Source: Nereocystis luetkeana (lineage: Eukaryota > Sar > Phaeophyceae > Laminariales > Laminariaceae). Taken from it: a stretch of 64,000 nucleotides of DNA. Positions 3,050 to 45,700 of this stretch are shown piece by piece (position 1 is the first letter of the stretch; the number at the start of each line of letters is the position of its first letter). Where the stretch lies: the NCBI GenBank assembly GCA_031213475.1, contig JARUPZ010000008.1:11465938-11529937 (forward strand), read 5' to 3'. Under the pieces are notes generated by a model that worked only from the letters and a program-made list of their open reading frames with translations, ran no database searches and had not been told where the DNA came from. The position numbers and the translations under genes are program-made.

Positions 3050-3065
3050 CTAATAATACCTGGTA

Positions 3066-3973
3066 CGAGATAGTAGTAGCGTGCGCTCAGAATGGTGGCA
3101 ACAAACCAGCACAGCTTGACCCTCGACGACAAGTTGGCGAGCTAATCGTGGGCGCCTTTTTGTCGGCAGTATTGTACGATAGATAGCATTCCATCAGTTT
3201 CGAAATTCCAAGCATGCATATCCTCAACAACGGAATGGAAAGAAGCACGTACAGCAGTACGAGTAGTAGCAGGTGGCGGTGGTGGCGAAAAAAGATGTGT
3301 TCTGACTTCCAGATATCGAACGGCTTCGGGGTATTTTTTCAACCGTGAAACAAGTTTGCCTGGTCTACATCCATCTGCTGTGTTGTGGTGCTCGTACTTA
3401 TCTAGTAGTGAGTGGGTGTCCTGTAAGCCTCCGTCCAGTGTTTGTGTGTTTGTGATTGTTCTCCTAACCGTCTGGAAAAAAAATCACACGATTGGGACCT
3501 CATTGCGAGCATTATTGCGTCATAATCGTACGCTGTAATAACAGAAGAAGAAGTAGAAGTGCATACAAGCGTATCTATCTGTTGTCGGTCTATACGTAAA
3601 CGAAGACGACGCTCCCCTCCGACGTTGAGGTTTTGCCAACTCGGGGTATCGAAGCAGTTTGAGTCGCCAAAGAGGAGGGAGACGCAAGCAAGCAATGCCT
3701 ATACGCCTCGCAGTCGGCTTCGGGGCGCAAGCACCAGGTTGGGACGCTATTAACACAATAAAAAAGTACCTTCGCTGAGCAGGGAGCACTCTATCACGCC
3801 GCACGCACGACATAATCGATTTTGATTCAAGAACCCTGAGGGAAGTTCTCGCGTTTCTACAGCAAACAACACGCCGCCGTTCACGAGTAGTAAAGGAAAA
3901 TGAAAGGGGGAGGGATACAACAGAATTTCTCGTGTTTGCCCTTTTCGTCTTCATGGTTTCAAGACACCTGCTG
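3066..3973. other. No recognisable gene
   Basis: Open frames of up to 144 codons exist on the minus strand but show no family features. I found no exon flanked by credible splice signals. Confidence 0.4.
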
Positions 3974-4084
3974 CTATTTACGGGGGAACATAGTTAATAG
4001 GACCAAATATTGTTTGTAAAATGGTTAAATATATACGTGTTTATGTTTACCATAGGTCCTGTTAACTATGGTCCCCCGTAATAG
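3974..4084. mobile_element. Foldback element F2, copy a
   Basis: The arms CTATTTACGGGGGAACATAG and its inverse (CTATGGTCCCCCGTAATAG) enclose an AT-rich spacer of about 45 bp. The inner part (GTTAATAGGACCAAATATTG) recurs at 37268-37507, where the family has a longer interior. Confidence 0.75.
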
Positions 4085-4365
4085 TCATAGTGCAACCTTG
4101 ACCTTATGATGCCGGCAGCGTCCACAACGTTTCTACTACTACTATTATTGTAATACAGAGGCACCAGAAGACCTCCACGACAACGGCCCAATCGTCTGTA
4201 TTAGTATCCCTTCCAGCCCGCGTGGGTAACGAGGAAAAAATCACGTACCAGAGGCAGACAGACGTGGATGTGTTCCCCACCGCTACGTACAGTAGTAGTA
4301 CCACAGCCGGGTGCTACGATCCCTGACGCCGGTGAAGATGCATTCGTGGGGGTGATCGAACCTAC

Positions 4366-4424
4366 CTGGCCGTGGACAAAGCCGAGGAGGTTGCCAACGC
4401 GAGCAAAACCCAAGACTTGACCAT
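4366..4424 (-). CDS. Orphan signal-peptide exon 1 of a third beta-helix paralogue
   Basis: Read on the minus strand, this is a 59-nt exon from ATG to GCCAG followed by a GTAGGT donor. It encodes MVKSWVLLALATSSALSTAR: a short basic start, a hydrophobic core and a small-residue cleavage region. It has exactly the length, phase and donor position of exon 1 of gene A (36816-36874) and gene B (42724-42782). The sequence upstream of the ATG also resembles that of gene A. No matching exon 2 was found below 4366, so the rest of the gene is off the left edge or lost. The longer minus-strand open frame across this site reads a different frame and is probably not coding. Confidence 0.6.
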
Positions 4425-4751
4425 CCTCCAGTAGTACGAGTCGGTTGGGGGTGGTGTCGAGATGGGGAAGTCGGTCGTGTTTGCGGATGAGTACTTGACT
4501 GCAGTGTATGCTGCTGCTGCGACGGGTACTCAGACTAGCGCGGCAGACAAATTCTAAAAGGGAGAAACTCAAATATACTGCTGTCTTCGGAAATTCCCAT
4601 TTTTATCATCACTCTACGTATGTATACGTATCATTTACCAGGTATACGGGTACGTGCGTATGAGGTCAGTAATACAAATTGACCGCTTTTTCTGTACGAT
4701 ATTTTGAATGAAAATAAGAAAAGCCCATCAGATCTCATTTTGCTCGGGATG

Positions 4752-5333
4752 GTGTGCGTGTGTTCTTCACATTAAAAAACCGTTCTTTCTACCCGTCGAC
4801 ATCCAGCACAGCAGTGTTCGTGACAATTCTTCAATCAATCCTAGAAGGCGTCCCCGGTGGCTTGGTGGGTGGTCCGCGTGCCTATCAAGATCAATTTCGT
4901 CGGTTCAAGCCCCACCGAGTGCATGCTCGTAAGGGCTGTTTCTTGGATGAAAGAAATTGATTGGCGGAAAGAGCGAGGGCGTGAGTTAGCTACATTCGAT
5001 GAAAATCGACGAGCAGTGGGAATGCTGAACCCTATGCGCGACAAAAAATAAAGGCACGTACCGGGGGGGAGAAGGGTAGACACCTGTGACCACAGCTTGT
5101 CCAGAAGGTCGTCGAGGGTAAAACCTCCTGCGAGTTAGGCTGGAAAGTGGAAGTGACGATATAAAAAAAAAAAAAAAAAAGAGATGCAAGTTGTTCTTCT
5201 GTGGTCACAAAACTAGGCAACAGAGATACTACGTTGCCACGTACCAGGTATGCAGCAAGGACAGCAGTGGGCATTGCAATGTCATGTCGTCATATTGGGT
5301 ACGACGGGCACGACGGAACTGAAAGATTAAAAG
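4752..5333 (-). repeat. Dispersed repeat R5, copy a, split by a SINE
   Basis: Read on the minus strand, 5333-5181 then 4847-4752 aligns with the uninterrupted copy at 35452-35655. Shared landmarks are GGCAACGTAGTATCTCTGTTG, CTTCTAGGATTGA and GATGTCGACGGGTAGAAAGA, with an (AC)n-like tail. The SINE at 4848-5180 sits inside. A third, more diverged copy is at 33455-33600. The class is unknown; the microsatellite tail suggests a retroposon. Confidence 0.75.
4848..5180 (+). mobile_element. tRNA-derived SINE family 2, copy a
   Basis: The head CCCCGGTGGCTTGGTGGGTGG contains an A-box-like TGGCTTGGTGGG, and GGTTCAAGCCC about 45 bp later is the B box. The body ends in a run of about 18 A. Other copies are at 34129-34471 (minus) and 41765-42096 (plus). 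Insertion into repeat R5 is shown directly by the uninterrupted R5 copy at 35.5 kb. Confidence 0.85.
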
Positions 5334-15229: not shown

Positions 15230-17649
15230 GGGCCATGTGAGTGTCGAGATACCGATCGTTCGTGAACCCGATAAGCTTATCAGAGCGTCGCTACCTGTAG
15301 GTGACCCCATCGAGGCGGTGGAATCTCCTTACAATCCGATTCTTAGTGCTCTATAAAGGGTCGACACGTATGTCGTTGCTGCGTCTGATAGCGGCTCGTC
15401 AGCAGCGTCTACCTGCGTCCGTTACTCGATAAGCACGGGACATCCAGGTTAACACAGGGGTGTTACCGGCTTTACTACAACAAAAAAGGATCAAAGACGT
15501 CAAACTTAGCACACGGAACGAGTAACTGCGTTTGCCAGGTGTCGCAGAGAGGACAGTATTGTTGGATTTCGATATCAGACGTCCAGGAGACATACGCAAT
15601 GTTTGAACACCAACTATCAGACGCCAAGGCCTATTGTGCTAAACATGAGGTATATACGCATGGTACAGGAGATATGCACCCTAACGATTCTGCGGCTCCT
15701 CCCTCCAGGAGCTCTACACTATTCCCAATGTATCTAAATTATTGGTGCTAAGACTAATGAAGATCCTTCATCGTGAAACACTTCAAGACCTAGGGATTAA
15801 AAAATGTTAGTTTGCCAAACCAGAATGACTTTCGGACGATTTGGTGATAAGTAGCCCCGTCATTTTGGAAACCTTTACCCAAACAATTGTAGATGCCCAC
15901 CTAGTCTCCCAAATAGTCTGGGACTTGCCTTAACCCCAACCAAGAGCGTGAATGTGATCTTCATTTTTCTAGATCCAAGAAGTCCCGGTCGAAAAACTCG
16001 TATGTGCGTTCCATCCAGCCTGACCAAATTTTCAAGCCAAAACGCGATCGCCGGGACCGGTGTTCTGCGATCGATAGGTTTTGGGGCGTTCCGACATCGT
16101 GATTCCATCGTATTAGCGATCATTGCACTCCAAGGCTGAAACCACATACTGAGACGTTTACCGCACAAGCACGCCTTTCTCGATCTCCACATGGCTTCGT
16201 GGTATGCTTTCTCTGTCACGTATGTATACAACCTTACAATTACGCAGGCCCTTAGCCCGGTCGGTTGTATTTATCATATTTCCAACAGAATTCTGCGGCG
16301 TTTTACATTTTCATCAAACACACAAGATGTCGTTTTCAAAGTCGGGTATATGGTCGAACAGCCTAAACAACAGCGGTTGGTCCAAAATTAGTCGTATTTT
16401 TCCCGCATCATGGGCAAGCAAAATAAGGATGAAACATTTTTTTGTCATGATTCCTGAATCCCGATACTTGGGTACTCTCAAGCCTTGTCGACCAATCCAG
16501 TATCAATTTCCCGGGATAAGGGGAGGAGGGTGTAATGTACTATTTCTTGGGTTTCGGTGAACGTTTTCGTCGTTGGGGAAAGTACTAACACAATTCCCAA
16601 ACAATTCCCTGTTGAGCTTTTTTTACCCGTGTGTGTAACCACCTTGGTGCCGTTTGGGCTATACTTTAGTATATTCCCCCACGCTATTTCCTCCATGCGA
16701 TAACGAGCACAATATCTTCAACCCCGTCGTCGGTGCGATAGGCCATCGGCCGACAAGGTGGCTTACCTCTGTGACAGAGAAAGTATACCTCTGTGACAGA
16801 GGAAGCACTAGCGTAAACTTAACGTTCAACACAACCAAAATGTAATCGTTGGTAGATTTAATACGGAAGACCGCGTAGGTGCGCCGTACTTGTCCGCCCT
16901 ACTCGACACAACGCCGTATTGTCCCGACAGTTTTTCTGGAAACACATGTATACCGCGATCTAGAGAGAAGCCAACAGATGGAGTATCACGTGGTATTAGT
17001 TGATCGATGGGGGTAACAACAGGCGAGTTCCTCGTCTTCCAAGCAGGGACGTCAGCATGATATGGCGATCAGCTTTGCGACCAGGTTTCTGTTGGGTGGC
17101 AAGTCCATGAACGTCGAGTCCCCAATCACGTTCAAGCGAGTTGAACGCTCGTGGTTTCAAGCACAGGATATTACATAGAATTATCTGCCTTGTATAGCAC
17201 TGCTAGGCGGCGGCGTTGCGGAACCACTGATAGTATCGGGCCGTCGTTCCGCCTGAGTGTACCGGTTAAAATAATACCTGGTAGATGAATATATGGCAAA
17301 AATGACTTGGCTATCGCTGGACATGGGTTCTCGCCCGGTAGTTGAAGCTGAGATATACCTTTAAGAGTCACACGGTCTGCGTACTGCTCGCTAGCAATCG
17401 ACGATGGTCATAACGTCAAGCGTAGTGGGTATCTTCATCTACGACCGCCTCAGCATCATACGAAGCGAGCTCAGGAGGGCGTTATACATTTTTCACTCCA
17501 CGGTATACCGCTCGTGGAACCGTGGGTAGGTGTATTTTCACTGTTAACGAGCCGGTGCTGGCTTCGCTTATTGGCACAGCTGCATTCTTCCTCGGAAGAA
17601 AGTGTATTGGTGTCTCGAAACGTAAACGTTTGAGCAACTTCTCGTTTCA
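15230..17649. other. No recognisable gene
   Basis: A plus-strand open frame of about 119 codons (15392-15751) looks protein-like but matches nothing I know. The rest shows no supported exon. If the membrane-protein pseudogene is one gene with the 15.2-kb exon, this stretch would be intron. Confidence 0.35.
16764..16805 (+). repeat. Tandem pair of CCTCTGTGACAGAGG palindromes
   Basis: Two 22-bp units, each centred on CCTCTGTGACAGA(G/A)G. This is an odd palindrome with 7-bp arms around a central G in the second unit. It lies in unassigned DNA, and no function can be assigned. Confidence 0.7.
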
Positions 17650-19734: not shown

Positions 19735-20145
19735 TTTTGTTTTTCACTGGAAGGCATGTATGTCATGGTAGAGCGTGTGTTGCCTCTTTCTTTGGTGTTT
19801 CTACCTCTTCTTGGCGTATTTCACCTGTGTAATTCGATCTAGCAACCCTGCTTTGTATTTTTTTAGGTGGATGTGTCATTTTTATCTTCTGGTACTACTA
19901 CTCCCTCTTTGTCTCTTATCACTTGAATTTGTTTGGTTGTGTGACATATGGTACTTTGTTTTCTTCGTATTGTGCTCAATTAATATTAATAGTCGAGTTT
20001 TGTGTTCATCGGGGCTTGATATAATATACCAGGTATATATATAGATTATATAATACATAATATATACCTTATATATATATTTTCATTCTTCGTATTGTGC
20101 TTAATTAATAGTCGAGTTTTGTGTTCATTGGGGCTTGATTCTATG
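19735..20145 (+). repeat. T-rich repeat R7, copy a
   Basis: TCACTGGAAGGCATG, GTGTTGCCTCTTTCTTTGGT, ACCTCTTCTTGGCGTATTTC, CTTATCACTTGAATTTGTTT and CTTCGTATTGTGCTCAATTA occur here. They recur in the same order at 20385-20640. The end segment (TTAATAGTCGAGTTTTGTGT) is itself repeated at 20085-20145. The strand is strongly pyrimidine-biased. Confidence 0.7.
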
Positions 20146-20352: not shown

Positions 20353-20384
20353 AATACACCATATATATATATACCTGGTATATA

Positions 20385-20640: not shown

Positions 20641-23600
20641 TTCGCCCTTTCCTGTTTTTATTCGTGATGTTGGCTTCGATTTTCTTCGTCACTCTTTGAT
20701 TCGTCTTCAGCCTACTTTTTGGGGGGGAAAGCTAGGCTCTGTGCTCTTGGTTTTTGTTCATCCCCTCACCGCTTTTTCTCATTTTTCAGGGGTGTCTGAT
20801 TTTATCTGGTCGGAGTAAACTGTACATACATACATGCAGCTGGACCTGTGGAGAGCGGGTTCGTATATATATCGTATGAGCCTAGAATTATGTTTGTGTC
20901 GGCTAGTAGTAAGTCGCGGGTTCTATCTCAGAACGGTAAGTTATTCTACAAAGCGCTTTCTGGATCTTCTTCAGTCGCTGAAGGCGAGAGCTAGGCAAAT
21001 TAAAAAAAAAAAAACAAGTATCGACCTAGTGGGAGTAGTAATCAAACGCATGCGCGATAGACGGTATGGCCTATATATCGGGGCGGAGGGGGTTTAGTAC
21101 CCGTGACCACTGCTCGTTGTGTCAGTTAAGTTGGCAAGACATATCGTTCGAAAACATGTCGTTCCCAGAGTATTTACTTGTTTTAGCGAATCTGCACAGA
21201 TTGCCCAACAGCTCCCGTACGATAGCAGCGGCAGCGGTTCAACAGGAGCGGTTAAACAGCAGCAGCAGCGGATTTTCACATGGGCTTTTCGTTAATAATG
21301 CTGGAAAATAACACGTGTTCTGTGTTCCTCCCTTTTCATCCTGCGACACCCCCAGGATTCAAGCCAACCATATATATATATATAGAAGGGGGCCTCGTCT
21401 GTGGTATGGTATGTGCACAGTTAGTTTGTGCAAAAAGATATGCGACAAACTCCTGCTGCTGTTTGTTGCTACTACAGCTTCTGCTGCAAGCACGCCTACT
21501 TACGTTGCGTTCAACACGTCCTACAGCAGCAAGCAGACACACATGCGCATTTTACAAGAAACTCATATCTCCGTCGCCTTATTATATAACGCGGTTCCTT
21601 TAAAAATATCGATTCCCGGTTTAGCGTAAATATGTTTCAAGCATACTTCAGAATCGTTTTTTTTGCCATTAATAACCGTACACCATCACCGGTGTCTGCC
21701 CTAATCGATACACCAATGCTGGTGTATTGAACCTGTTCGCGACACACATACATGCCGCCAGTCTCTTTGTCCGGCCAATATGTGTGCCTCGAACGCGCGG
21801 AGGTTCGCGGCGTACTTTGCAGTCCTAAATAAAGCTCAGAGGTACTCCACTCGCGTACTGTTTCCGGTGTGTCAAGCAAAGTTGTCCTGGAATACGGGAA
21901 CGCGTACAGTGGTGTTCAGCTCGTGACATTGAGGCAAAGTGGGTGGCCGTATCCGCTCCCCGCCTCCGTACTTCCGGACGGCTTCAATGTGTACGTCGAT
22001 GTTGCTCCGGTGCGGTTCGGTACGCCGCTATGTACTTTGACACGCCGCATACATGTGGACCTTCGTCCGGTTCGTGCAAGAGGAACGAGCGGGCTTGTTT
22101 GCATCGTATTGCATCTACAACAGCTAATGCTTGCATCCTGATTGACATTCGGCGGTTGCCCGACAAAGGTCTACAGCTCAACTTTGGGGTGCTGCAGTGG
22201 TCGAAATTTCTTCGATACTTGAAAGTCACATAATGAGACGCGAACGAACCCGACAAAAAACGATATTAAAATGCTGCTGTACTTGGGCGAAACACGCGCA
22301 GCAGCCTATGCATCAGGCTTCTTCTGGCATCGCGATATGATATCTTCTACAGAAGCATAATGTCAGAACGACTGTGCGGCTAACACCCTCATTAGTTTCT
22401 GCGGATGCTCGGTTTATCAGTTTTGAGTGACCTCGAAACTCCAGGTATCTTTCGACTGGTAGAGGTAACACATGGCACGTAAATGCTAGGACCGTGTGAT
22501 CTTTAGATGAATATTGCAACGGTTCTTACAATTCTGTCACAGAGGTATCAAGTGCCTGGCCGAGTGGCAGATATTGATCTAGTGGGGGCGGACGATAGCG
22601 CATGCAGTCGACCTGTGGGTCAAACATTGGTGCCCGTAACGTGAAAGCTCGGCGCTAAACGTCAAACCCATCGCGGGAGTCACGCCGGGGGCTCCATGCG
22701 CCCGAAACTGTCAAAACGGCCTGCAACAAGCGGTGTGTTTCACAAACACGAGACTTCAAAAATCGACAGGAAATCCTCTCCAAATAATATGGTACCAGGT
22801 AGTCGTTCTTCTTCACTGGTGACGGAGAAGCAATAAGTAAGCTCTCAGGTACGTTTGTTCTTGTTTTCCCTTGCGGCCCTCAACTTGACTCAATAAATTT
22901 AACGGTGGGACACCATGCCCCACCGATCAATGTCCTCGTCTGCTCCTCTTCTCGAGAAGCAAGAGTCAGGCCCAGGGTTAAACGTTTTACGATTTTGTAT
23001 CTGGCGTCGGAGCTCAAATCATCATCACAGAACCAACCTAACATCGGTTTGGGCACTTACTTCCTTCTGTAGTCTCACTAACCATCCACAACCTCCTTCA
23101 CATCAACACTATCGCCTCCGATCGCATAGCAAACAACCAGAGGCAGTCTGATCGCTGACCCTGTATATCGAGTAAGGAACAGACAACGCCCAGGGATTGC
23201 CCAATGAATTGTCGAACATTTTGTGGATAAATCAACAATCCTCCGTCGTGTATTATTGACGGAATATGTGGGAGTCAATGTTTCCGTGCCTGAACTGAAC
23301 AGGAAATCTCTCTTCTTCACATGGAACTCCCTGAACGGGCGTTTCGTCTCTGTTACAAGCCGTGGACTGCGAGTTGGCGCTCTCTTGAGGGCGCGTTGGG
23401 AACAACTAATTCCACCAGGCATAACACATTACTACCCGACTGTATCACAACACATCACTACCCTACGACGTCATGCCCACACCGTTCCCTGTATGCAAGA
23501 TAATACAGCATGCACTTAACATACATACGCACAATGAGCAACGTAGGGCTGCTTAAGATTGCCGCAGGCCGAGCCGTGACCGTATCGCTAGTTGTACATA

Positions 23601-23815: not shown

Positions 23816-24027
23816 GTGGGTTGATATTTTACAATGTTTACAGCACTGCTGCGTGGGCTTCGTTATCGCGTTGGCCAAGGATTGACACCAAACTAGTTCG
23901 CAAGAATCGTATAATAAGCTCGTCTGACAGACACGGGGGATAGACGTGACATAATTAAGGGAGTGACAGCGTGGCTTTCGAGACTCTCGGTAGGAGAGAC
24001 GAGGAACCACACGATGACGCGTCCGTT

Positions 24028-27000
24028 TTAAGCAGCATCCGCAGGGACGCAGACATCATCGCCGGCGAAGCCAATCAGCGTGCCTCCGTCGGAGACCTCC
24101 CCAAAGGTGCAGCTGAGGTCATTCTGTCAACGGGGTGCCGTGCGATCGGGACATGGTGTCGGCAGCTATTGATTAGTGCCTCCAAAGGTTAGGAGGCCTT
24201 ACCCCGATTGCGGCGTGTCAAACAAACGGTTATCATCGACCCACGTGTGCACACCGAGAAGAAATCCCGGTTGATCATACCGACACGATATAATGTAGCG
24301 TTTTCGAGACCCCATGCGAAACGTTTTGGTACCATTAGAAATTGATCGGCGCTCGATTTTTATGCGGTTTAGGTTATCTACGGTGGCATCAAACCCAAAC
24401 TCGCATTTCCTACTTAGCGACCGGCAACGGGGCGATCCTAAAAGCTGTTGCTCAAAGGGCGGCGTACCGAGTACGTGTCGAGGACGGCGTTCCTAGAGAT
24501 GACTCGACCTGGCCTCTTGAACGTGAGTGAGCCACCACTGACAGCGAAAGCGGACCCCGAGCTAGCGCTGTTGCCATCAAAAGTTACCGCCCTGTTAAAG
24601 CTGAAAAACGATGCGCCAGCGAGGGTTTTCGCGGGACATCACAATAGGGTGACATTGGGGCTTTCGCGGGACATCGCAATAGGGTGACATTGACATCATC
24701 ACGGTAATGTTTGAGGCACATACATGTATTCACAGCTAATGCGTTGCCCCAGCAGTTCACTATATTGCAGGGACGATAATGGCATGGTGTTGTAAACTCC
24801 AGCATACCCGGAGTTTTAATAGTTGCTCAACCTGTTCACAAGGACAAGGAACCGCACGGAGGTCGCTTTGAACAACACCGAGAGGCACTTTACAGGGCGA
24901 CCTAGTACAAGAGCTCTATTGATAATCTCGTTGAACTTACACAACGTCGCCTCCAGACACGGATACGCCTCCGCCGTCAAATTCAAAGTCGGCATGGTTG
25001 TTGTTGAACTGCACGGCGGCCTTGAACCTGAATGGTAACAGGAGAGCACGGAACAAAGCACCGTGCGCGTTTAGGACGTCGAAGAAAGAACGACATTTAC
25101 AGCGGTCGAAGGGACTGGTTTTTAGGCACACCTTGTGTGTTGCATCCATTCGATATGTGGGCCAACCTCTCTATGACGAACGTCTTGATCGCGCAGAACG
25201 TAAATAGTTTCTTCGTCGCTTGATGAGGGTCAATCCCTCCCAGGTTCTACCCCTCCCAAGAACGGTATGCCGTGTCGAGCTGAGTTCATCGGGACTTTGA
25301 CCTGTGCAACTGCAACAGGAACAGCGGTCGCTGTACTCATGTATCGCGTTTATGTGTGCATTGGCATTGTATGCCACACGCCGTCGTGGAACCAGGAAGG
25401 ACCACGAATCAAGCGAGATACGAACACTCACGTCGCTGAGCCCGCACGATTAAAAAGGCCGGCGCCGTGGGACTCGCTTTCGTTGTCGTTGAATGACGCC
25501 TTTCCGTAAAACCTGTAAACCAATTGCGTGCATGCACGATATACGCGAACAATAGCAAGGGGTATAACAGCTGGTGAGCGCTAAACGTTGACGAGTTGCG
25601 TACGTTAATGCCAACGCTACACATGATGCCAAGGTTGCGAACATCTGCGTCACTCTCAACACAGGCCGAGTCAGAGATGGATCACGGCGTGCTCCTTCCA
25701 CGCGTTCGGTAAGGAACGTCCAATATTGGCTTACTTCATGTCTCCCTCGTTCAGAACGGCTGGACCTTCCCTACATCCATTGTTTATGAATGTTGCCTCT
25801 CCACGGAATCTGTAACATGATGTCAACAACGTTAAGGCGGAATCATATAGACATCGAGGAGGGAGAGATAAAACGTGGGACGCGAAGATAGGTGTAAGCG
25901 AAAAACAAGTTATGTGGAGCATGAAGCCGATCGTGGGAACTCATCAAGACTGTCATGGATCATGCATCACGAACGCGAATCGTATAATTCATGTTTTTTT
26001 GTTAAACAAAAGGTATAACTGGCCACGTTTCGGCCAAAATCAGTTACATTCTACAAACAAGTACGAAACACACCCCAGGAGCCCTGCTATTGGCAAGGCT
26101 GACATCGTAACTGATTTTAGCCCGAAAAGGCCAAGGTAAATCCGTTATATTTTACCCTGTCTAGCTTCCAACAGAGTTTGGCCAGCTTTGAACCAATCAG
26201 AGATGCCATACGTACACTGTGTTTTCTCTCTCAGTATGCGTCTGCCCTCCCACGGTTGAGATTATTCTGCGCTGACGTATAACTCTGTACTCGTACGTTG
26301 TACGTGAAAGTACCTATTTACATATGCATACATGCGCACGCTAATGGTTTCACTTTTCTTCGTTGAGGTGTGCGACGTGCTTCAGTTAGTTGTTGTGATG
26401 ACTGCTGCTGTGTTGTTTTATATGGTCACAGCGGTGTATACAGCACCATGGTCTTCATCTCTACCACCCCGCGTAGAGGTGGTCTCAACTTTGGTACGGC
26501 AAGATTATTTCGTGCCGAGCAGGCGGTTCCGCGAGGGCGGTCTTTGAAATTTCAAGCTGTCAAGGGGGGGGAGGGGGGGGGGTAGAACAAACACTCTTTT
26601 TGGCGCCACCGCCGTGGGAAAACAAACGAAGCCTATTAATAGTGACTCGCTGAAGCCCGTGGTACCTAAACCCTAAAGAAAGGAGAAAAACGGTTTAGAT
26701 TTGGGAGGCCATGTGGCACGCTTCGTTTTTACCGGACTTTCATGGAAAAAGAACACCGCTCGTGGCGCGCGTATTTTAATTGGTTTTAGCATATACATGA
26801 TTTTGGCTCAAACGAATGAGCCATCCCAAAGTAGGGGTACACGAGTACTTCCTGAGCCCCTCACAATAGGGGCTCAATATCTCACCCGATACAATACCTG
26901 GGAGAAATTTGGTTGTGCCAACTGACCGGCACGTGTTTGCCCTAGTCCTAGAACCAAAAATACGAGTAAATTGTTCATCCGACCGGTAGTTCCCCCCTTA

Positions 27001-30000
27001 AGGAACTCATTTGGCCCGAAATCTTTATCCCAACTCGTGCAACCCCTACCGTGGGGTGACTCGAATCAGGTATATATAACTGATTTTGGCATTTTCCCTA
27101 AAATTAGGGTATCAGCCATGACGTCTACACGCCAGTTAAATGCAAAATATGTTTATATTCGGTACGCTTCCTCGCCGACTAGTATGACCTCGCTTATGAA
27201 AGACCAGGCGAATGTCGTCAATGTTCACCTGATCTTCGAACCTTCACGGTTCGACAAGCTGCAGCCCGGTGATCCGTCGACATTGAACGCGTTGTTGTCA
27301 AAGGTAGCCTTCTTCGAAAACCTGCGCGACCAGACAATAATCTAGTATCCATTACATTTTCAGAGGAGGAGGGTACTATGCAGCTCATAGGACCCAGTCG
27401 AAGCGAAAAGAAAAAGTGGGCAGGCTTTCTGTGGCAAGGGTGCACCTTTCTTCTCTTTGAAAGTCTCGCATGAGCGAACTCTGCATCTCTGACTCAAACG
27501 CCGACAGTGCGAAAATGTGTAACCGCGACGCGATGAAAGCTCACACGGCCTATCAATAGGATTGCACCGTTTTTACGAAATATTGGAAAGCACCAGGATC
27601 GTGTCAACGACAGCATTTATTTCCTCAGTTAGTTGCGGAGACCATTCTGTCGAAAACCCGTTCGTCAGAAAGAGCAGCCCCTGTCCTAGCCAACGCCTAG
27701 ACGATTCGCGTTTGGCGCCATGTAGCGGGTGATGCTGCCCGCCTTGTCTGCCGAGAGAAAATCAATCGGAAGGGTGTGCCGAAACATCGACTTCATAAAC
27801 ATGTCTCGGGTCACGTATCGCCTACCAGGAAAGTGCTTAACCCCTCTAGAACTCCAGTCCCGTTTTGGAGACAAGACACTCAACTTCCAAGTAATTTGTC
27901 GACAATTGTCCCCAAAACGAGACTACAGTCCTAAAAGGGTAGCACGTATCGCCCACATTTTTCACGGTGAACGTGGTATGATCGTATCAAGCGGCGCGAG
28001 AAACGCGATACACAAAATCCCCTCCGCTGACCTGATGAATCCAGACCCTTCGTTTTCCATGGAGTAGTACCGGTTGTCCTTGAAGGTAGCATCCCCGCGG
28101 AATCTGTTGAGAGGGCGAGTGATGTGACAGGGCACGAGCGCTAATTGATACATTCCTTGGCCATCAGAAGCAGGGCATGCCTGGTTGACAAGGCATTCCC
28201 TGTCTGTGCGAAGTCGACCGGATCAGGTCTAGCGTGCGATCGTCCCCACAAACATATACGGTCACTTGAAAGCACAAGACTCGCAATAGATATCAGTTCG
28301 TCGTGCAAGTAGACGTTGCAGTTACATATAGATAGGTGGGGCCTTAACCGTTACGTCGTATTTATAATGCTACTACTGCGAAAATACCGGCCGGCGAATG
28401 GGTTGGAAATGTCGGAACGCTGAACATTTCAGTACCCAACAATCTCACGCGCGCGATGCATCGATATAGCAATGTTATGAACCGGCGCGATGTAAGGAAA
28501 TAGATAACCAAGTGATCCGGGGACGCGATTCGTGGCGATGACCGAGACTTTGAGCACCACAAACTCGGTCGTCGAGATCAACCCATGTCCGAATCACACA
28601 CAGGCCAAGTTTCTACTCAAAATCGGCTCGACCCGAGCGGGGGATCGAACACTCACTTTATGCTTCCGGTGTTTTCGCTGAACACGCTGCCGCCATCCTG
28701 ACAGATCACGCTTTTCTTGAACCTTTCGAGCGGACGACGTTCCAGAACCAAGTTAGCGTAGCATGGTTTCCCGGGACGACCTTGTAGGAGTAGCAACGTG
28801 TTCTTGCAAATGGCTATGGGAAGAGTAATACTGATCGTTTCGGCAGGCCCCGTCCGTGATTAAACTATTGAGGATAGCTTGCCACGGTGATGCGAGCTGG
28901 TCGGCCTGATCGTGACGGCAATGTGTCGGTCGTTGGGAACCACAGTATTCAACCGAATAGCCAAGGTTCACGAACATCACAATTCGTATTTTTTTACGGT
29001 TTCCATCTTTTAGAACCAAACTGCCGTCGACTAACCCGGGATAGAGCCTGCCAGATTATACTAAGAACACAATGGCAAAACAGTTTCCAGATAGATGGGG
29101 CAACGGAAACACCGGGTCGACACCTCAGTAGTACGGGCGGAAGGGGTGCAACCCACTTACTCCATGGTGCCGGCGTTCCGAAAGAGGCTGCGTGTGTTGG
29201 TGATCTCCGTCGCAACGACGTCCCCCAAGAAAGTGACGCTCGCACCCTCCTCAACCATGACGGTAAAGCTGCCGTATGATCCGCGGTGTTCCCCCTGAAA
29301 ATACCACAGGGGTTTACACATACATGACAGGAACACGGTGCGGGGGTTGGGCGGGACCAAGTCGCGGAAATGTGAAAATATTGGGTCAGATGACGCAGGC
29401 GCCCTCAGACATTGTCTCACAGGACACTGAAGACGTTCGAGGTGTTTGTGGCTTACAAAAGTCGGTATTTAATCGACTTTGTGACTGCCGCCCACCATTC
29501 ACCGGCTACACTCGAGGATCGCGGTTGTGACTAGCAATGTGTCGGGCACGCTGTTTTTCTTCGACCGACGGGGTCGACTGCACTTGAACCGCAGCATGTA
29601 TGCAAGACTTGGTCAACAGCGCACAACCACGTTGCCAACATTTGTGGTGCTCACTTCGTTGTTGGGTCCGAAATCCGTCTGGAGCATGTCGAACACGAGA
29701 TTGCCCCCGTGGACGACAGTGAAGGCAATGTCCACAAATCTGAGCACGTCACGTTCACGTGTGGATCGCAGGCACCGGCTGTTAACCCTGCCTTGCGTAT
29801 TGTTAATCCTCACGGTGCAACTGATCCTTTGGGTTTCCATTTTGAGGAGGGCGTCCTACGGTAGGGCAAACGAGTTTTGGCTCACCGGGCTCCCATACCC
29901 CCATCTCGTTAGAACACCTTTCGTGTTTTACTGTACAGTATGGTTCGTTATACCTAGGCTTCGGGATTGATCACTATCTGGTTCCGCCGCTGTCTCTATA

Positions 30001-33000
30001 TCAGTATTTGCTTCGGGAGCGGCCACGACATTCATCTCCAGAAGCTCGAACAGTTATCAACAACAGTGCTCGACAGTCGCCTCCACCAAGGATTTTTGGG
30101 GGTGTCAACCATTCTTCCAAGTGGGCTCCGGAAATATAGTTAGGCTGTTCGAGATGCTCAAACCGCAGGAAACCATCAGTGGCGATGATAACAGGTTGGT
30201 CTGTTGGGCCATCCCCTTATCTACAACGCTGCTGTTGTTGAATACCAACCTAGAATTTCTCTTACCACACAAGAAGCGTAAGAGTCATACGACCTTACCG
30301 GACATTGCTGGAGCTCTTCAGCGTTAGTGTTCCGCCGTCGACAACAACAGTCTCCAGCAAGTTCTCTTCGGCTTCGCCCCTCACTTCGATCTCAACACAT
30401 GCGATCGTGTCCACGCCATCGAGGTTGATCTCCACGTCGGCCGTCATCGGCGAGGGTATGTCGAGGTACTGGTCGATGTCCACGCAAGCAGCTCTGACAT
30501 TCAATCCACGGGGAGTCAAGGAAAGAGGGGAGGGGGGGGGGGGGGGGGGGGGGGTGTCGTGGACAGAGCGATCGCATTCATTTCTTATTTATGTTCGCAT
30601 TCAGACCCATTGCTTGCTGGGAAAACAGCACGATGAGCCGCGACATGACGCGCAAGAAGATTTGTCGGCGAGAGGGTGCAACGCAATGGTCACCTTCTGC
30701 GCCGCGAGAGGAGTCAAGAAGACCTTGCGAAACAGAACAAATTCGTAAGGGGCCTTTACGCTGCTCAGACTATGGCGTACATTATTAGCAATATCATAGC
30801 TGGTACTGCGTATCTGACATACCTGGTAGGAAACGGTCCCGGTGAAACGGTTTCGATGGCGTGTACTCCCGGCCCCTGAGAGGAGGCTATCTACAGCAGT
30901 TAGGATCGTCGTTCACGAACATGGTCGTTGCTCACAACTTCACAATCCTTCCGCCAATTCCAGGTATGCTTCGTACTATTATTATTACAATGGCGGAAAC
31001 GAGAGCACGCAGTAGGTCTCCACGCGCAGGTCTCGACGTCCTTATTTATGGTGCGAGTTTTCTACCGCGTAACACCTACGAGTAATACTGTATTGACACC
31101 AGAGGTACAGAGTATATGTACGATACACGACACTAAAAACATGTTCCTGCCGCTAACGACGTCCCGAAAACAGTGGCGGTCACGACAATCCCTCGATCTG
31201 CAACTTATTGCTGTCGATATGTTTTAGGAAAAAAGTCAAAGAAGGTACGCCTGTTCCGTTCGAGCCGAAACCAGTCCATACCTCGTGCTGAAACCGAACG
31301 ACACGCAGATGCCACGAGTGTTTTGTTTAGGTCCCATCACAATCTGGGAGAAAGTATCTTTATAGGTTGATAGGCTCTTCAGGTATTTTGGTTCCTGTTG
31401 GGATCAAGGCACGGGCGAAGACCCAACCCAACCCCAGACTCTAAACCCTAACCCTAACCCTGACCCGAAAACCGGAACTAAAATGGGCCAAAACTTCCCA
31501 CAAACGCGGCGCAGCCGCTTGCAAAAAACAGGAATTTTCTCAATTTGAGGACGACAATTCCGAAGTGCAGACCGCGCGACGCAAATTTCATGTCAAAAAC
31601 ACCCCTAACGATTCCTTCTCCCAGGTCGCCCCGGTGGTTCAAGTGGTTAACCTCGAATTCTACTTGTTTGAGTCCTGGGTTCGAGCCCCAGGTGGGTCGG
31701 ACTTTGACTTTATTTGCAAAAATAAAAATAAAAAAGGATTCAATTGTTGAGAGCGCCTTGCAGCGTGGGTAGGCACAATTCGATGCGAGTCGACGAGGGA
31801 AGAAAAGGCTGAAATCTTCTCGCGATAAAAAAATGAAGGCACGTACCGTAGCGGGAAGGGGGGAGAAGAGCCTGCTATGTGACCCCGGATCTGAGTTACG
31901 AGTTGGAAGGAGAGAGAGAAGAAGATGTGCGAAGATAATGAATGGGATGGAAAAAAAAAAAAAAAAAAAAAGGTTGCTAAACCTACTCTTTTTTCGCCAT
32001 GAGGAAATAAAAACACACACACACACATTTTTTTGCGCCTGAAGATTGAGCGCGTGGCCTCCAGAATCTGAATCGTTTGGTTTTCGTTACGGGTACTTGT
32101 TTTTGTTGTTGTTGTTGTTCTCACATTAACTCACAATTCAATGCAGTCCGTGGTCGCAGGACAGGCTCCAATAACTCTGGAGTGGAAGAAATACCTCAAG
32201 TAAAAACAGAGGCAAAAAACAAAAAACAAGCATACGCACTCCACAACTGCGGACACCAGGGAAGCAAAAAGGAGACTATTAATAGCAGACAAAAACCTAA
32301 AAAAAGAAGATGAAGCTAAGCAAAAGAAAAACAAAAACTAAACTAAAACAGACGCAGATAGCAAAACGCAAAAAAAAGGCAAAACGGACCATACTAACAA
32401 AGACACAGAGAGGTACAAACGGGAATGAAAGAAAAATGAAAGGGACAAAAAAACGATAATCACGGGCGGGGGGGAAAGAAAATACCAAAGGCAGGCACTG
32501 GAGCATACAGACACGCAAAGTTGCCCAGATGGCACCATGCTAGTTACTTGGGTCCCAAAGAAAGGAGTGCATCATGACGATGATGGCCATAACCAGGCTT
32601 CAGTCTGTTGGGCAGACCGCCTCCCCTCCCCCCCCCCCGCCATTCCCCCTCGTCCCCCTTTCGCCCCCCCCCTCTTCCCTGCCATTCTGCACACTCGCGT
32701 TGGCGTCAACGGCTGTGGTCGTGGTTGCAGCTATTCTATGCCGTTCTGCCGATGCCTCCTTCTCATCTGTATGCCATTTCCGCATGAAGGCCTCCGCCCC
32801 TTCCTCGACCCGTCGGAACCATCTGCCGGCTTTCTGTGCTGCCTCGCGCCACCCTTCGAGCTTGATGCCGATTTCCTTGAGGTCCTCCTCAAGGTACCTC
32901 ATCCAGTCCCACTCCTGTCCTCCGGAGTAACCCTTACCCCCAACCATCTCCCCAAACATCACCCTCTTCGGCAGACGCTCCTCTCCCATTCTATTGTAGT

Positions 33001-36000
33001 ATAGGCACCACGGACTGCACTTGGGCCTTCAGAGTGTGATCAGGCTTCGTTCGTTTCCCCATGGCGGGAGTGCCAAGAATACTTAATCTGGCGCCTCCCC
33101 CCCCCGTTTCCACCTTTGAAGCTTTTCTCCACCCTCCTCGCGGAACCGCCTGCCCAGCAAAAAATTATCTTGCCGGGGACCAAACCTGAGACCACCTCGA
33201 GGCGGGATGGTGCAGACGAAATGCCGTTTGTGTCCATGGTACAGAGTAGCATGACTTCTGTGCCCACAAAAAATAACAGAATACCACTACCAGGTACACA
33301 TCAGGACAACAACTATTAATATTGTTAACTGGAGCACATTGCTCTTGTTTTTCCGGTCTTGCTTGTGTTTTTGTGTTCTCGTCCGCGGTACGGTGACACT
33401 TCACTTGCTTGACACTTGAATTTGCGATTTGGTTTTATTTCTGGTCTTCCTCTGTCTCACAACCTGTTACCACATAATCAGTACCTGGTATCTCTCTAGG
33501 ATAGGGAATCAGGACGGACACTGGGTGTGCTGATGAAGCTGGGTAAAAAGGACGATTTAATGTGAAGACAACAACAATAATAGTAAGTGAAGACAACAAC
33601 TGAAGCACACGGCCCCAACGAAGAAGCAAGTGAAATCATCGTAATATAGTACCAGGTACCTGGTAGGTAAGTATGCTCGAATACTTACGTACGGATGAAG
33701 AGTTTATGGACGATAATTGCAACCAAGGGGCTGCAGATTGAGCAGACGCATACACAGCCGCCAAAATATGGTGTACGTGGCCTCTCTGACTGGTTCAACA
33801 TTCGCCAAAATCAGTTGAGAGCTAGACAGAGTAGACAAAAACAGATGAACCTGGAGCCTCGAAGCCGTTTTTTTTTTTTGCCAGGGTTTCAGCACCTTTT
33901 TAGTGTGACGAATGACGATCAACTTTTTGTTTTCCTACGTCGTCGATTTCGAGCTTCAGCTTTATATTTTTCGAACTTAAACCTGAATGCCCCGGTTACG
34001 CAGTCCAAATATGCAAAATCTGACCGGAAAATAATCGATTTGAGAATACGATGATCCAAGTCGTCGATTTTTGGGCCAAAATCGGGCGACTTGGATCATC
34101 AGATTTTCCAATCGAAAAATGGCATGCTCTTTTTTTTTTTTTTTTGACCATCGTCCTTACTTTCCAGCCTAACTCGTACCTGGTAGGAGGTTTTACCCTC
34201 AGCGATCTTCTGGGCATTCCGTGGTCACAGATGTCGTCCCCTTTCCCCCCCGGTACGTGCATTTATTTTTTGACACGCATAGGGTTCAGCATCCCCACTG
34301 CTCGTCGTTTTTCATCGAATGTAGCTAACTCACGCTCTCCCGCTTTCCGCTGATCATTTTTTTCTGAAAGAAAAAGTCCCTACGAGCATGCACTCGGTGC
34401 ACTCGGTGAGACTTGAACCCACGAAATTGATCTTGATAGGCACGCGGACTACCTACCAAGCCACCGGGGATAAATGTAAAAGTTATCCACGACAACAAGT
34501 AAGTAGCAGCAGAACGATCGATGAGTCGATGAGTTGGATGGTGACACGGCTGTGTAGCGACGTTGCTTCGCACCCGACGCGCGGTCGGCGGGTGTCGTGT
34601 CTCGCCGTGGCCAGACTATAGCTGGCCGGCGCGGGCTCGGGCGTAGAGACCAAGAGAAGCGCACTCTCCGTGGACACGTTCTCGTGGACTACACTTCTGT
34701 ACAGCAACATCCGCAGCAGAGTCGCAGTCACATATATATGTGAAACACAAACATGCAGTGCAGCGCACGCACAGCGTTTCTTCGCGGACCACAACAACAA
34801 CCGTTGGTCTCTGCTTTTGCTCTAATTTCTGCACGCACAATATATAAGATTTTTCCGCATAGGAAGGCTACTGTTTCGATTTGCGAAGTTGACAACTGAA
34901 AAAGCGATCGGGGTAAAAAAATATGAAGCTAAAAAACCAAAGCCCGTAAGAATCAGCCCACTCATAATGAGAGAACAGCAACAAATACCTGGCGTTAAAT
35001 CACGTTCGTAGTCAGTCACAGGCCATATGCGAGTAGCATGGGTCCTGGCGTGGGATTTGGATTTGTTTTTAGTGTGTACCTGGTAATTGTTTTCGGCCGG
35101 AACGCGGCCAGGTACACCTGATTCTGGCTTCGTATAACCTTTTCTTGACTATTATGTTATAGTGGCATCAAATTGTTTACGATGTACTCTTCCTTGCTAC
35201 TTTTTTCCTTGGTTCTTCGTCTCAGTCTGTTTACAAGCAGTGGTGTTTTTTTCTTATTCTTTTTCTTCCTTTTTTTCCAGCTCGTTCTTTTTCAAGTGTT
35301 GGCCACCTCGCCTGCGGGGGAGGGGCACGACAGATTGTTTCTCTTAGATTTTACTTTCATTTTTTTATTTTTCTCTTTCGATTTGTCTACCTTGTTTTTG
35401 TTTTCTCTTTGATTGTTTCTTTTCGTTTCACTATTTCATAGATTGCGTATGTCGTGCCTGTCGTATCTAGTACCTGGTATGATGACATGGCATTGCATTG
35501 CCCACTGCAGTGCATACTGCACACGTGGCAACGTAGTATCTCTGTTGTGACCACAGAACTTGTATCTCTTCTAGGATTGAAGAATCGGCACGGACACTGG
35601 TTGTGCTGGATGTCGACGGGTAGAAAGAACGGTTTAATGTGAAGAACACACACACAACCTAGCACGTATACTTCGTATATGAATTCGTGTTGTTTTTCGT
35701 GATTCGGTTTGTATTTTTAGTTTCTGTTTTTTCCGCCACAATATATTTGTTCATTCTTCTTCTTCTTCAGCTTCCTCCCAACAGGTCGCGACTCAGATCA
35801 GCAAAGTTGAACGCAAATCAGCATGACGTTCCCCTTTTTTTACTCTGCCATGTGGTGCGCGGCTTGCATCTTTACGGATCGCGAGGGGAGTGTTTGACAA
35901 GACCCTACACCGCCGACTCTGCTGTTCAGATCGTGCCTACACACGCTTCCCATGGGAGGGTCTCTTAATTTGATACATCTCGACCAGAATCAAGCTCCAC

Positions 36001-36874: not shown

Positions 36875-37161
36875 CGTCACGGAGTACTTAGGGAAACTGC
36901 GGTAGGGTTGGTGTCACGAGTGAGCAGCTCGAGCTTCGCCGTGTGGGAGTGTTCTGGTGGGGGGTGGAGTAGACAGAAATTCTAATTCCCGTCGACTCTA
37001 CTACTGTTGTTTAAAACGCAGACTACGCATATAGATATCCCGTCGTGTCCAATTCTGTAATCCCCGTCTGTTCGGGGTTCGTGGTCTGCATATAGAAGAA
37101 TTGATGCTTATGGCTGTGTCGTGCAGAACTTTATTAAATACCCCGAACGCAGTTATCAACG

Positions 37162-37248
37162 CTTTTAGGACTCCAGTCCCGTTTTGGAGGCAAACCACTT
37201 GGAATTTGAGTGGTTTGTCCCCCAAACGGGACTGCGGTTCTAAAAGGG
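37162..37248. mobile_element. Foldback MITE family F1, copy e
   Basis: The arms are CTTTTAGGACTCCAGTCCCG and the inverse ACGGGACTGCGGTTCTAAAAG, spacer CACTTGGAATTTGAGTGG. It lies upstream of gene A. Confidence 0.8.
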
Positions 37249-37267
37249 TCAGTAATTAGGAGGGGTC

Positions 37268-37507
37268 ATTGTTAATAGGACCAAATATTGTTGGTAAAAA
37301 GAGCGAAATTTATATTTTTTTGTGTGCCAGGTGCACCGTATTTCCTACCAGGTATTTTTTATGGTTTAGGGTTGAGTTAGTGAATACGGGGGGCGATAGC
37401 AAATACGAAGTAGGAAAAAATGTTGTTACTGACTGTAGTACAATCAGGTAAATACATTGGTTTTTGTTTATACCAGAGGACCTATTCTCTATCGCCACCC
37501 GTAATAG
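37268..37507. mobile_element. Foldback element F2, copy b (long interior)
   Basis: GTTAATAGGACCAAATATTG matches copy a, and the far end GAGGACCTATTCTCTATCGC then CACCCGTAATAG is partly inverted. An inner inverted pair (ATACGGGGGGCGATAG at 37383 and CTATCGCCACCCGTAAT at 37490) suggests a nested or rearranged structure. Confidence 0.5.
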
Positions 37508-40316: not shown

Positions 40317-40339
40317 TACCTGGTACCAGGTACCTGGTA
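40317..40339. other. Three overlapping TACCWGGTA motifs
   Basis: The 23 bases from TACCTGGTACC to GGTACCTGGTA contain three 9-bp motifs sharing their TA ends. They are alternately centred on T, A and T. This is the longest chain in the window. Confidence 0.85.
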
Positions 40340-41764: not shown

Positions 41765-42096
41765 GGCGTCCCCGTTGGCTTGGTAGGTGGTCCGCGTGCC
41801 TATGAAGATCAATTTCGTGGGTTCAAGTCTCATCGAGAGCCTGCTCGTCGTACGGGCTTTTCTTGCTAAAGAAAAATGATTTGCGGAAAGCGCGAGAGCG
41901 TGAGTTAGCTACAGTCGATGAAAATCGCCGAGCAGTGGAAATGCTGAACCCTATGTGCGCCAAAAGATAAAGAGGCGCGTACCGGGTGGGAGAGGGGACG
42001 GCACCTGTGACCACGGCTTGTCCAGAAGATCGCTGAGGGCAAAATCTCCTACGAGTTAGGCTGGAAAGTAAAAGTGATGACTGAAAAAAAAAAAAA
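41765..42096 (+). mobile_element. tRNA-derived SINE family 2, copy c
   Basis: Same head, body and poly-A tail (about 13 A) as 4848-5180. The B box is intact (GGTTCAAGTC). It lies about 630 bp upstream of the gene B start codon. Confidence 0.85.
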
Positions 42097-42723
42097 TGTT
42101 TGCGGTCTACACATACAGCGGATACGCCCTATCACCTCTGTGCACCGGTGACTGCAAGTTCTCCGTGTGGTGAAACTCGCTCCTGGTAACATTCTGTCGT
42201 TCGAGCCATACCATGAAATTATATATCTTTTGAGTTTCTTCGTGTGTGGCACGTCTGAGCAAACGCGAGTGCCACGACCAGCAAGGGTGTCAACAACAGA
42301 ATGTTTGTCCGAAATGTAGCAGTGTAAGACACAAAATAAACATCAGTTCAAACCTTCTTCAACTAAATAAATACCTAAAATGAATGCACATTGTTGCAAC
42401 ACGATGTACGTACGTTATATGTCATGCTTGTATACCCAATCTCGTTTTCTACACGAACGTACAGGGTGAGATGAGTGCCACTACGCTCGGGGTATTTGGC
42501 CTCTGCCGTAGGAATATTCATGGAGTTGTCCCGTTCTGTACACACCACAAATATATGTACAGCCGTGTACTACAAGTACCACACGACGATCACTAACTAC
42601 CTGGTGCGTCGTTTCGGATTGAAGATCAAAGCAACCCACGGCACCCCCACGATACCACTCATCTACCGCCAAGCTCCACACAGCAACCCTTCAAGCTTTA
42701 CCCGAGTACTAAAGAACGTTAAG

Positions 42724-45700
42724 ATGGCGAAAGTTTGGGGTATGCTTGTGCTGGCAACGTCAGCGCTTTTGTCCTCGGCCAGGTGGGTCATACTGGACTG
42801 GTGAATATTGGTATCAAGAAGGCCCCAACAATACACTGCTCACGCCAAGCTTACAAAATTAACTCAGGGAAGGCCGTGAAACGTAGCTATCTTGAGTAGT
42901 AGTGCAATTATGCCTGTCTGCGTGTAACGACTCTCTTTTCGTAGACGATGAAGAAATTTCGAAAGTCCGTGAGCATCACCGTTGATCAATATCACTGAGT
43001 AGAGCCGCTCTTGAGGCGGAAGCTTAAACTCTCCGGGGGAAAAATACAATAAAATTTACCCGGGTAGGCGCATGGGGTGCACCTGGGAAGGCAGGATATT
43101 TAGTCGTTGGCGCGCATGGATTGATTGGGTATACCTTATAGAATAACATAGTTGTGATTGCAGTCGTCAGTCGCGAACGGCGGGGTACTAGCTGCCCGGC
43201 CTCCTTTCAGGAGGTGTCAAGCGCGCCGTCGAAGCCAATATTCCGCACTCCCTCTCAAGCAACGTTGGCTGCCCTCGGAATGTGGGCCGCACGTCGTTAT
43301 GAAGATGACAGTTATTTTTAAGGACGGTGTCAGTCAACGTTTCTCGACAGCACATACCCTGGCACGGTTTTTCTAAGGCCAAGCACGGCAGGTTCGTTTC
43401 TGTGTGACCTCGAATACCCTCGTGAGCATCACACGTATTCTAGTGCCCAGTACTACACTGTTTGCACCACACGCCTGGAACAATGGCATACGACACACAC
43501 TTCGCTTTTCGAAACCCTTTGATATGTTCATTTGACCTGTAACAGACAAAACGGAAAAATGAGAACGAAACAAAAAATGGGAACGGACGTTTTTTTTTAG
43601 AAAGCAAACCAATTGTGTACAACTCCAAGAAAAAAAGTTGACAGTCCTGTGGGGCTGTACAGCAGCCTTCGAATGAGCTGTCGCTCAGGCTGGAAGTCCT
43701 CGGCATCGCCGCGGTAGCCAGCATCTAGAGAAATCACAATAGAGCCAGCGTATATCGCTTTTTGCGCCCACCCGAAGGCACAAGATGGAGCATGACCGTT
43801 CTGACGAGCTCCTCTCACAGGGCTGGCCAAGGGGTTTCGCAGGATCATTTTGGTTCTCTGATACACCTCATGGTTCTGGAGATACGGCTTGGTTCTCATT
43901 TTAGGCTTCGTTCCCATTTTTCCGATTTGTCTGTTCTGTGAACGCTTGTCGACGAGAAGGATGCCGTTCTACAGGTAGCAATATTTACGTACGAATAGAT
44001 TATAACACTTTCAGCCCCTATTAGTCTATCAAAGGTTGTCGATTGTATCAAAATTTACACATTTTGGGGGGTTCAAGTTCACTGGGAGCAAGCATAGGAC
44101 GGCTGGAGTGCACCCCTCGTCAAATAAGTGCAATATATATGCTAACACTGTAGTGGTCGCGCATAGGAAATCACTTGCCACTTTTTTATGAGCGTGGGAA
44201 GGCTCGACTGTTCTCGCTCTCGATCGAGTAAATGTATTTGTAGCATACACGTAAGAAGTATCGATAGTTTTGCAGGCTCCGTCACACCAGATACTTACGT
44301 TTAGGCTAAAAAGGGCGAAGTCCAATCTCGCCATCAACCATACTTAAATGCCAGGTACATGTTTTGTTTAGACAGGGTGGGCTAAAATACGTGGTTTTGA
44401 TTACTGTGTGCAAGAATTCGCTCACGTTGCGAGACGCTTGCACTCCACGAGCGTGCGGAACATGCTGCGCCAGTTTCATTCGAATTTTTTGTATTTGCGG
44501 GGCTTCCATGATTTCCGCTGTCCTGTTACCATTTGCGAAGGCGCGATAAAAGGCGATAATTGCCTTCATTGGTAACAAACAGCACAAATTGGGCGGTTCT
44601 TGAAAATTAAAAGGTGTGCGCGCCACAGACAGATTTGATGTCGACAACAAAAAACAGAAGTATAGGTGTACCCACATACTGGGGCGGTGCCATGCATGCT
44701 TTGTCTATCGTTTACCCCGGTTGGTTGTTAGACGCTCCACCTGCCAGCCTACACGTACCAGGTATTGTGTATCATTCGTCACATTGTACGAGACGAGCGA
44801 GCGTTGGTTATATTTTTCTCGATCGATTATCGAGTGTACATAATATCGGCACTACGCTACAAGGTACTTACAGGAATTAATTACATGTTACAAGATCGCC
44901 AGTGTTTCATAGATAGATACATGGAAGAGTAGAAGTCGGGGGGCTATCGGTTGGGAGGATTGGCGTTTGTTTGTTAGTCTGGAGAGTGTTGGTCATCGTT
45001 CATTCGCCAAGAGTGGTACTCTTCATATTTTTTCTCGTTCTCCGTGATTGACTTTCACGCCGCACATTGCCCGACGTCACGACCAAAACATAGGGCGATT
45101 CCTACTATACGACTGGGTAAACTATTTTATTTCACTCGTTTCGGCAAGGGTCGGACGAGCCGTATGTATACGTTCAGTGTGCCGCGGTACATATTATGCG
45201 TAAGGACCCATGCTTCGATGTCAGGTTTTTTGTGTCAAAGAGTGTCGCTGTCGATCGGCTCCGGACTCGAACGGGCATGACGATACAAACTAAGAATCTT
45301 TTGAAACAGGAAATAATGGTACCGAATACTGTACACCCCAGTAGTTAGTATTCCTCCAAGTTCGTGTCTATAGAACATGCGATATAGCCTGAGATTTAAG
45401 GGTCTCCGTTCGTACGAATGCGGTGCCGAGAGTCCACGTACGATTCGCGATGGGAAACGTTTTGCATCATGTTTTTGGAAATTTTGGTACAGGGTCGTGG
45501 CCTGCCCTCGACTTCGCCAATGTGCGGCTCATCGCAACCTTAGTGTGGTGACATACTGCGAGACGAAGACACAGCACGCGGTGCATAACTGCCACACCAC
45601 CTGCGTATTATAATTGCAAAATTATTAGAAAAAGCAACATTGCCGCCGGTACCAGATTCGTTCAACTCATCGAGCAACGCTTCGGCTGGTGATACACTTA

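Follow-up and report, generated by a model that had tools for sequence, protein, structure and literature searches.

Copies of TACCWGGTA in the window and in the genome

The DNA analyzed here, referred to as the window, is a stretch of 64,000 nucleotides from the brown alga Nereocystis luetkeana (C8:11465938-11529937, contig JARUPZ010000008.1) in an assembly of 465,085,209 bases and 1,987 contigs. It carries many copies of the 9-bp odd palindrome TACCWGGTA, where W is A or T, and we refer to these copies as scars. Some of them lie in or beside repeats, including copies of a short interspersed nuclear element (SINE)-like sequence, copies of a repeat family called R5, and a foldback element. A sequence-only reading of the window had reported 20 exact copies at 17 loci, and all 20 are located as claimed. 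The loci are listed here along with three SINE-like copies, for which strand is also given.

3057..3065, scar TACCTGGTA adjoining a foldback element; exact match, empty state of the other arm ambiguous
4636..4644, scar TACCAGGTA; exact match
5242..5250, scar TACCAGGTA within an R5 copy; three empty counterparts, all with TG instead of TA
17275..17283, scar TACCTGGTA; exact match
20027..20035, scar TACCAGGTA in AT-rich surroundings; exact match
20372..20380, scar TACCTGGTA in AT-rich surroundings; exact match
22793..22801, scar TACCAGGTA; exact match
30820..30828, scar TACCTGGTA; exact match
33288..33296, scar TACCAGGTA; exact match
33482..33490, scar TACCTGGTA within an R5 copy; the corresponding site in L021 is empty
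33650..33665, tandem double scar TACCAGGTACCTGGTA; exact match
34177..34185, scar TACCTGGTA (CCAGG on the SINE strand) within a SINE-like copy; two empty copies
35077..35085, scar TACCTGGTA; exact match
35471..35479, scar TACCTGGTA within an R5 copy; two empty counterparts
37346..37354, scar TACCAGGTA; exact match
40317..40339, tandem triple scar TACCTGGTACCAGGTACCTGGTA; exact match
44756..44764, scar TACCAGGTA; exact match
34122..34470, minus strand, SINE-like copy with scar; from repeat comparison
4847..5187, plus strand, SINE-like copy with empty site (TG, a changed TA); from repeat comparison
41765..42096, plus strand, SINE-like copy with empty site (single TA); from repeat comparison

One hundred dinucleotide shuffles of the window gave a mean of 0.47 copies and a maximum of 3. 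Of every odd 9-bp palindrome scored in the window, TACCWGGTA has the highest ratio of observed to expected count (20 versus 0.60). Outside the window, we used a placed sample of 20 regularly spaced 10-kb pieces (16 from C1 and 4 from C2; 181,141 non-N bases), which holds 47 copies versus 1.46 expected, with at least one copy in 13 of the 20 pieces. Across the 465-Mb genome the motif is found at 182,395 places versus 1,744 for the reversed word, and the longer word TACCWGGTACGAG is found 1,424 + 1,417 times versus 4 + 7. The sequence-only reading had named a genome-wide count near expectation as the outcome that would tell against it, but the count is far above that of the reversed word, and thus the excess of the motif is real. 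The finding is also far larger than the window alone indicated: scar density is ~1 per 2.5 kb genome-wide, with the placed sample sparser at ~1 per 3.9 kb. The central base is evenly divided, with 38 A and 37 T among 75 scars (window, L018-L037, L050, and L051). The absence of copies beyond 45 kb, also pointed out earlier, is weak evidence, with 4.2 copies expected in 45-57 kb (P ~0.015) and 57-64 kb taken up by a satellite array. This array, at window 56962-64000, is made of units of roughly 530 bp that are ~80-88% alike, and it continues past the window end.

Insertion sites, their variants, and their targets

How the motif arises can be seen where repeat copies with and without it are aligned, and for this we compared copies in the window (to 56,900), in L010-L017 (chosen for carrying the motif), and in L018-L037. 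The minus-strand SINE-like copy at 34470-34122 reads CTCC-TACCAGG-TACGAG versus CTCC-TGCGAG in the copy at 4847-5187 and CTCC-TACGAG in the copy at 41765-42096. Some repeat alignment crosses 24 of the 89 scars, and at 9 of these 24 another copy is cleanly empty, with TA present once or altered by one base (window 5242, 33482, 34177, and 35471; L013:2438, L014:2227, L016:1501, L017:613, and L030:9132). The site at L012:1501, which the script flagged as empty, has a poor alignment and was discarded by eye. Of five filled and empty cases proposed from the sequence alone, the four at 5242, 33482, 34177, and 35471 hold, but the fifth, at the foldback arm (3057), is ambiguous and not counted, as the best alignment of the arms has no 7-bp gap. 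From the nine clean sites, we conclude that the motif arises as a 7-bp insertion with duplication of TA around CCWGG, as had been proposed.

In the repeat alignments, TA is duplicated in 23 of 170 filtered gaps of 4-14 bases. For seven-base gaps the TA-duplicating count is 9/23, and eight of those nine are CCWGG (seven distinct sites) with CTTGG as the remaining one. TA-duplicating gaps of other lengths hold CCAG (L033:5887), CCATGG (L016:1839), CCCTGG (L018:2841), and a tandem case (L015:1502), and ten further ones are of 2 or 4 bases, such as TA, CA, TTAA, and AAAA. The CCATGG insertion (8 bp) has a clean alignment and three empty copies; alignments are fair for CCAG, which has two empty copies and a third that is shifted, and for CCCTGG, which has one empty copy. 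The minor class TACCATGGTA is found 3,002 times genome-wide versus 623 for its reverse, and in 281 kb it is found 2 times versus 0.26 expected. In 281 kb with the complement included, TACCAGTA is found 27 times versus 8.9, partly in one tandem array (5 of 24 sites in L025), and TACCCTGGTA 4 times versus 0.65. A further word, TACGAGTA, is ~five-fold in excess in the window and sample (41 versus 8.6), possibly as another kind of scar or through repeats.

Scar differences between repeat copies amount to one per 430-590 substitutions in pairs that are 75-95% identical. One-base variants of the motif exceed expectation by ~34, beside 67 exact copies, and from this excess the mean decay of a scar would be roughly 5% per base. 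The insertion process has a long history.

When the flanks of the scars are joined through one TA, a symmetric preference is seen: the TA is preceded by R and followed by Y, and A or T and then A stand at -7 and -6. Scars by site type number 52 for 4,943 RTAY sites versus 0 for 1,975 YTAR sites. In the window and placed sample, with TATATA flanks removed, TA stands at -7 in 35 of 114 scar flanks versus 580 of 9,309 at other RTAY sites, while the next-highest excess is at -8 (0.14 versus 0.07) and -6 is near background. Few of the five-base spacers in these 35 flanks are close to CCWGG (4 are one change away and 6 are two changes away), and thus decayed scars are not the main cause of the excess. 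To our knowledge, a TA preference seven bases from the target is not a feature of Tc1/mariner elements. A scar is itself TA-N5-TA and so recreates the preferred spacing, which may explain the tandem scars. Among the 75 scars counted above, tandem pairs number 10 versus 0.85 expected, and the central bases of tandem neighbors (AA 4, AT 3, TA 2, and TT 1) are mixed, a better fit to repeated events than to simple copying.

Proposed origin as an excision footprint

The motif is probably the excision footprint of a TA-targeting cut-and-paste transposon that works like Tc1/mariner, whatever the stagger. From the sequence alone, the motif had already been compared to a cut-and-paste footprint whose central base is W, and the nine clean sites, the symmetric target preference, and the minor scar variants all fit that comparison. 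The transposon would insert at R-TA-Y, favoring sites that have other TAs at a distance of seven bases; the central TA would be duplicated, and the element would later leave. About three terminal bases would remain on each side, CCA on the left and TGG on the right, and rejoining of the break with one base lost or overlapped would give TA-CCWGG-TA. Rejoining without loss would give TA-CCATGG-TA, more trimming would give TA-CCAG-TA, and W would be A or T either by the base of the surviving side or by resolution of an A:A mispair. The new TA would lie seven bases from the old TA, so the scar would resemble a target and could be hit again to produce tandem runs. The transposon excision, the three-base stagger, and the rejoining step are parts of this reading that we infer. 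With CCA from each end, the model accounts for three classes (CCATGG, CCWGG, and CCAG) and for the free W, although CCCTGG would need a later change. The CCATGG variant points to ends that may give only CCA each, so the termini of the donor need not begin with CCWGG.

Like the footprints of the Tc1/mariner elements Sleeping Beauty, Mos1, and ZB, the scars consist of a TA duplication around a short end residue, and they share a central W with that of Sleeping Beauty, which is TAC(A/T)GTA. Also in common with Tc1/mariner are TA insertion with duplication, a symmetric target preference, and DDE/DDD genes of the superfamily in the genome, which are not linked to the scar. The scars differ in having a main residue of 5 bp versus 2-4 bp, in numbering more than 100,000, and in having no donor seen. 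Stowaway-type miniature inverted-repeat transposable elements (MITEs) target TA and leave short scars, and this genome likewise has a TA-duplicating MITE with TTACGGGGG ends, ~110 bp long (L022:9532-9635, L015:833-933, and L035:2891-3007); unlike the scars, it starts with TTACGG and has C before TA at 6 of 11 listed ends. PIF/Harbinger elements duplicate three bases (TNA or ANT), whereas the symmetric reading here gives two, with TAC readable as three at some sites. piggyBac elements target TTAA and excise without a scar, whereas here the duplication is confined to TA and a scar is left behind. As a separate observation, foldback elements with CCCTTTTAGAAC-type ends lie at window 625-718, 2801-2884, 2957-3049, 27840-27940, and 37159-37250; TTAA stands to the left of copies 2957 and 27840 and of one in L048, and these elements are perhaps piggyBac-like.

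Published accounts describe Sleeping Beauty and mariner transposases as nicking three nucleotides inside the element, with the footprint formed by the 3′ overhangs (PMC7827188), give a nick offset of two bases for ISY100 (PMC2170065), and report Tc1/mariner and Passer footprints of 2-4 or 0-4 bp (PMC7913693 and PMC9976928). A review prints the Sleeping Beauty scar as TAG(T/A)CTA. Among the open-licence PMC papers listed on footprints, brown algae, and Tc1/mariner, judged by titles and abstract openings, there is no report of such scars, and the motif's own words matched no paper.

Donor search and competing explanations

Several observations in this paragraph and the next weigh against the footprint reading. 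The main residue of 5 bp, with minor classes of 4 and 6 bp, is longer than the reported 2-4 bp or 0-4 bp, and so we liken the scars to Tc1/mariner footprints and do not class them as such. The scars outnumber any donor by at least ~38-fold, which is an extreme ratio (0 in ~288 kb, giving at most ~4,840 per genome at 95%). A donor with CCWGG-type ends had been suggested by the sequence-only reading, but none emerged: the sequence that follows 82 TACCWGG half-sites has no common form, and scans of ~288 kb (19 kb of which is N) turned up no TA-flanked inverted ends that start with CCA or CCAG. The matched control TACCTAGGTA is found 0 times versus 0.15 expected in 281 kb, numbers that are too few to decide anything. 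A scar is common to both copies in three repeat pairs (L010/L015, L012/L017, and L012/L014), and four scars have a one-base variant in another copy (L013:1501, L014:2161, L016:1501, and L030:9091), so repeats also carry scars with them when they are copied. The spread of scar differences is uneven as well, with 0 in 316 substitutions for pairs more than 95% identical and 1 in 8,020 for pairs below 75%. Among candidates for donor ends, 3 of the 10 CCTGGCA half-sites belong to a single tandem array and 3 more to related repeat copies, and the inverted-end scans gave only chance matches, scar pairs, or long inverted repeats. One of the last, a TA-CCAAAG-like repeat in L019, was rejected, its homology continuing past the TA to TGTGGGATT.

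No donor was found through the transposase genes either. With the DDE_3 profile (PF13358) there is no match in the genome at E 0.001, and the matches at a looser limit, confirmed for L038 and L050, fall into family A (L038-L047), the divergent family B (L048 and L049), and family C, none of them linked to the scar. The PF01359 profile gave no match, but its controls were likewise without a match, and the 48 matches to the DDE_1 profile include at least 10 from family A. The family searches retain best candidates only, and so absence of a donor from the genome is not established. Families A and B resemble what is sought in their DDE_3 match and in the TA beside the end, but the one end read begins TTACGGAGG or TTACGGTGA. 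The one readable end of each begins TTACGG, with TA adjoining it in 7 of 10 copies of family A and in both copies of family B. These ends of families A and B resemble the MITE with TTACGGGGG ends and cannot give CCWGG. The ten copies of family A are ~99-100% identical across the 2.9 kb that they share. They have open frames of 437-515 aa and an end of TTACGGAGG, and L040 and L044 do not differ even in their flanks. The family looks recently active. It has 0 scars in 29.3 kb versus 11.5 expected, which we do not use as evidence because the ten copies share one recent ancestor. The TTACGGGGG-ended MITE was probably moved by family A or B. Family C (L050:2178-3977) is an intact 599-aa DDE_3 transposase-like frame, which might be domesticated, and its one closer relative, L052, is degraded and 48% identical. 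No shared or readable ends were found for L050 and L052, and the DNA search was swamped by the high-copy repeat L050:900-1175. The pogo-like DDE_1 transposase superfamily targets TA, and its domain is found in genes L053-L056; these four show no terminal repeats or convincing ends in the pieces read, although pieces of 4.2 kb may not reach them. Retrotransposon domains are also present in the genome.

The footprint could form differently if the donor ended in CCAGG and were cut five bases in, leaving overhangs CCAGG and CCTGG that pair except at the center. Judged by their letters, 4 of the 5 positions would match, and the uniformity of the product would then follow; CCCTGG could be C plus CCTGG. 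Compared with CCA from each end, this variant explains the uniform product better and CCATGG, which it does not predict, worse; its five-base residue is again outside the reported 2-4 bp, and we regard it as possible but doubtful. A self-contained 7-bp process, the alternative offered by the sequence-only reading, in which an enzyme acts on TA and adds CCWGG plus TA with no larger element ever involved, is unlikely. No donor was found, the main product is very uniform, and tandem units form readily, all as such a process would have it, but CCATGG, CCAG, and CCCTGG look like end-joining of two residues, a TA duplication is the outcome of staggered insertion, and we know of no enzyme that adds CCWGG plus TA directly at TA sites. 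It is also rather improbable that the scars come from a genome-wide program or host enzyme, whether by excision of TA-bounded unique segments that are sealed with CCWGG or through a domesticated transposase that writes 7 bp at TA-N5-TA, so that every scar would provide a further target. If this were true, the genome would hold a 7-bp repeat that propagates itself without any underlying element.

Two other explanations deny insertion as the source of the motif. A functional site, such as one for protein binding, kept by selection would suit a palindrome of such high frequency, but insertion and drift are what the other evidence points to, namely empty counterparts in which TA is duplicated, a central W that is free, tandem runs, the decayed neighbors counted above, and the target context; we consider a functional site very improbable. 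It is equally improbable that the motif was present in the ancestral repeats and that some copies lost it. Some repeat pairs do share a scar, three by a strict count and more when one-base changes are allowed. The same count (made on alignments 100 columns or longer, out of 512, with related alignments repeating some events) gives 14 scar differences versus those 3 shared scars, the empty state is mostly the common one where several copies are comparable, and scar positions differ among copies of one family (5242, 33482, and 35471).

The window also contains two blocks in inverted order, 24027-30497 and 45836-51793, which are 67-85% alike piecewise and form an old inverted duplication, perhaps of genes. 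The palindrome TACTCSGAGTA has 7 window copies versus 0.03 expected, at least partly in short repeats at 54271-54821, and a ~390-bp repeat with inverted ends is found at 1265-1660, 43540-43935, and 58640-59028 (95.6-97.5% identical).

Four things are unusual in this system: the number of scars, a uniform residue of 5 bp, a TA-N5-TA target that is made anew by each scar, and a donor that is not found. Most studies of excision scars deal with only a few of them. With ~180,000 uniform scars in one genome, the history of the element, its target choice, and the end-joining of the host become accessible to statistics even if the element no longer exists. Through scars that restore their own target, a short sequence would have a simple way to grow in tandem.

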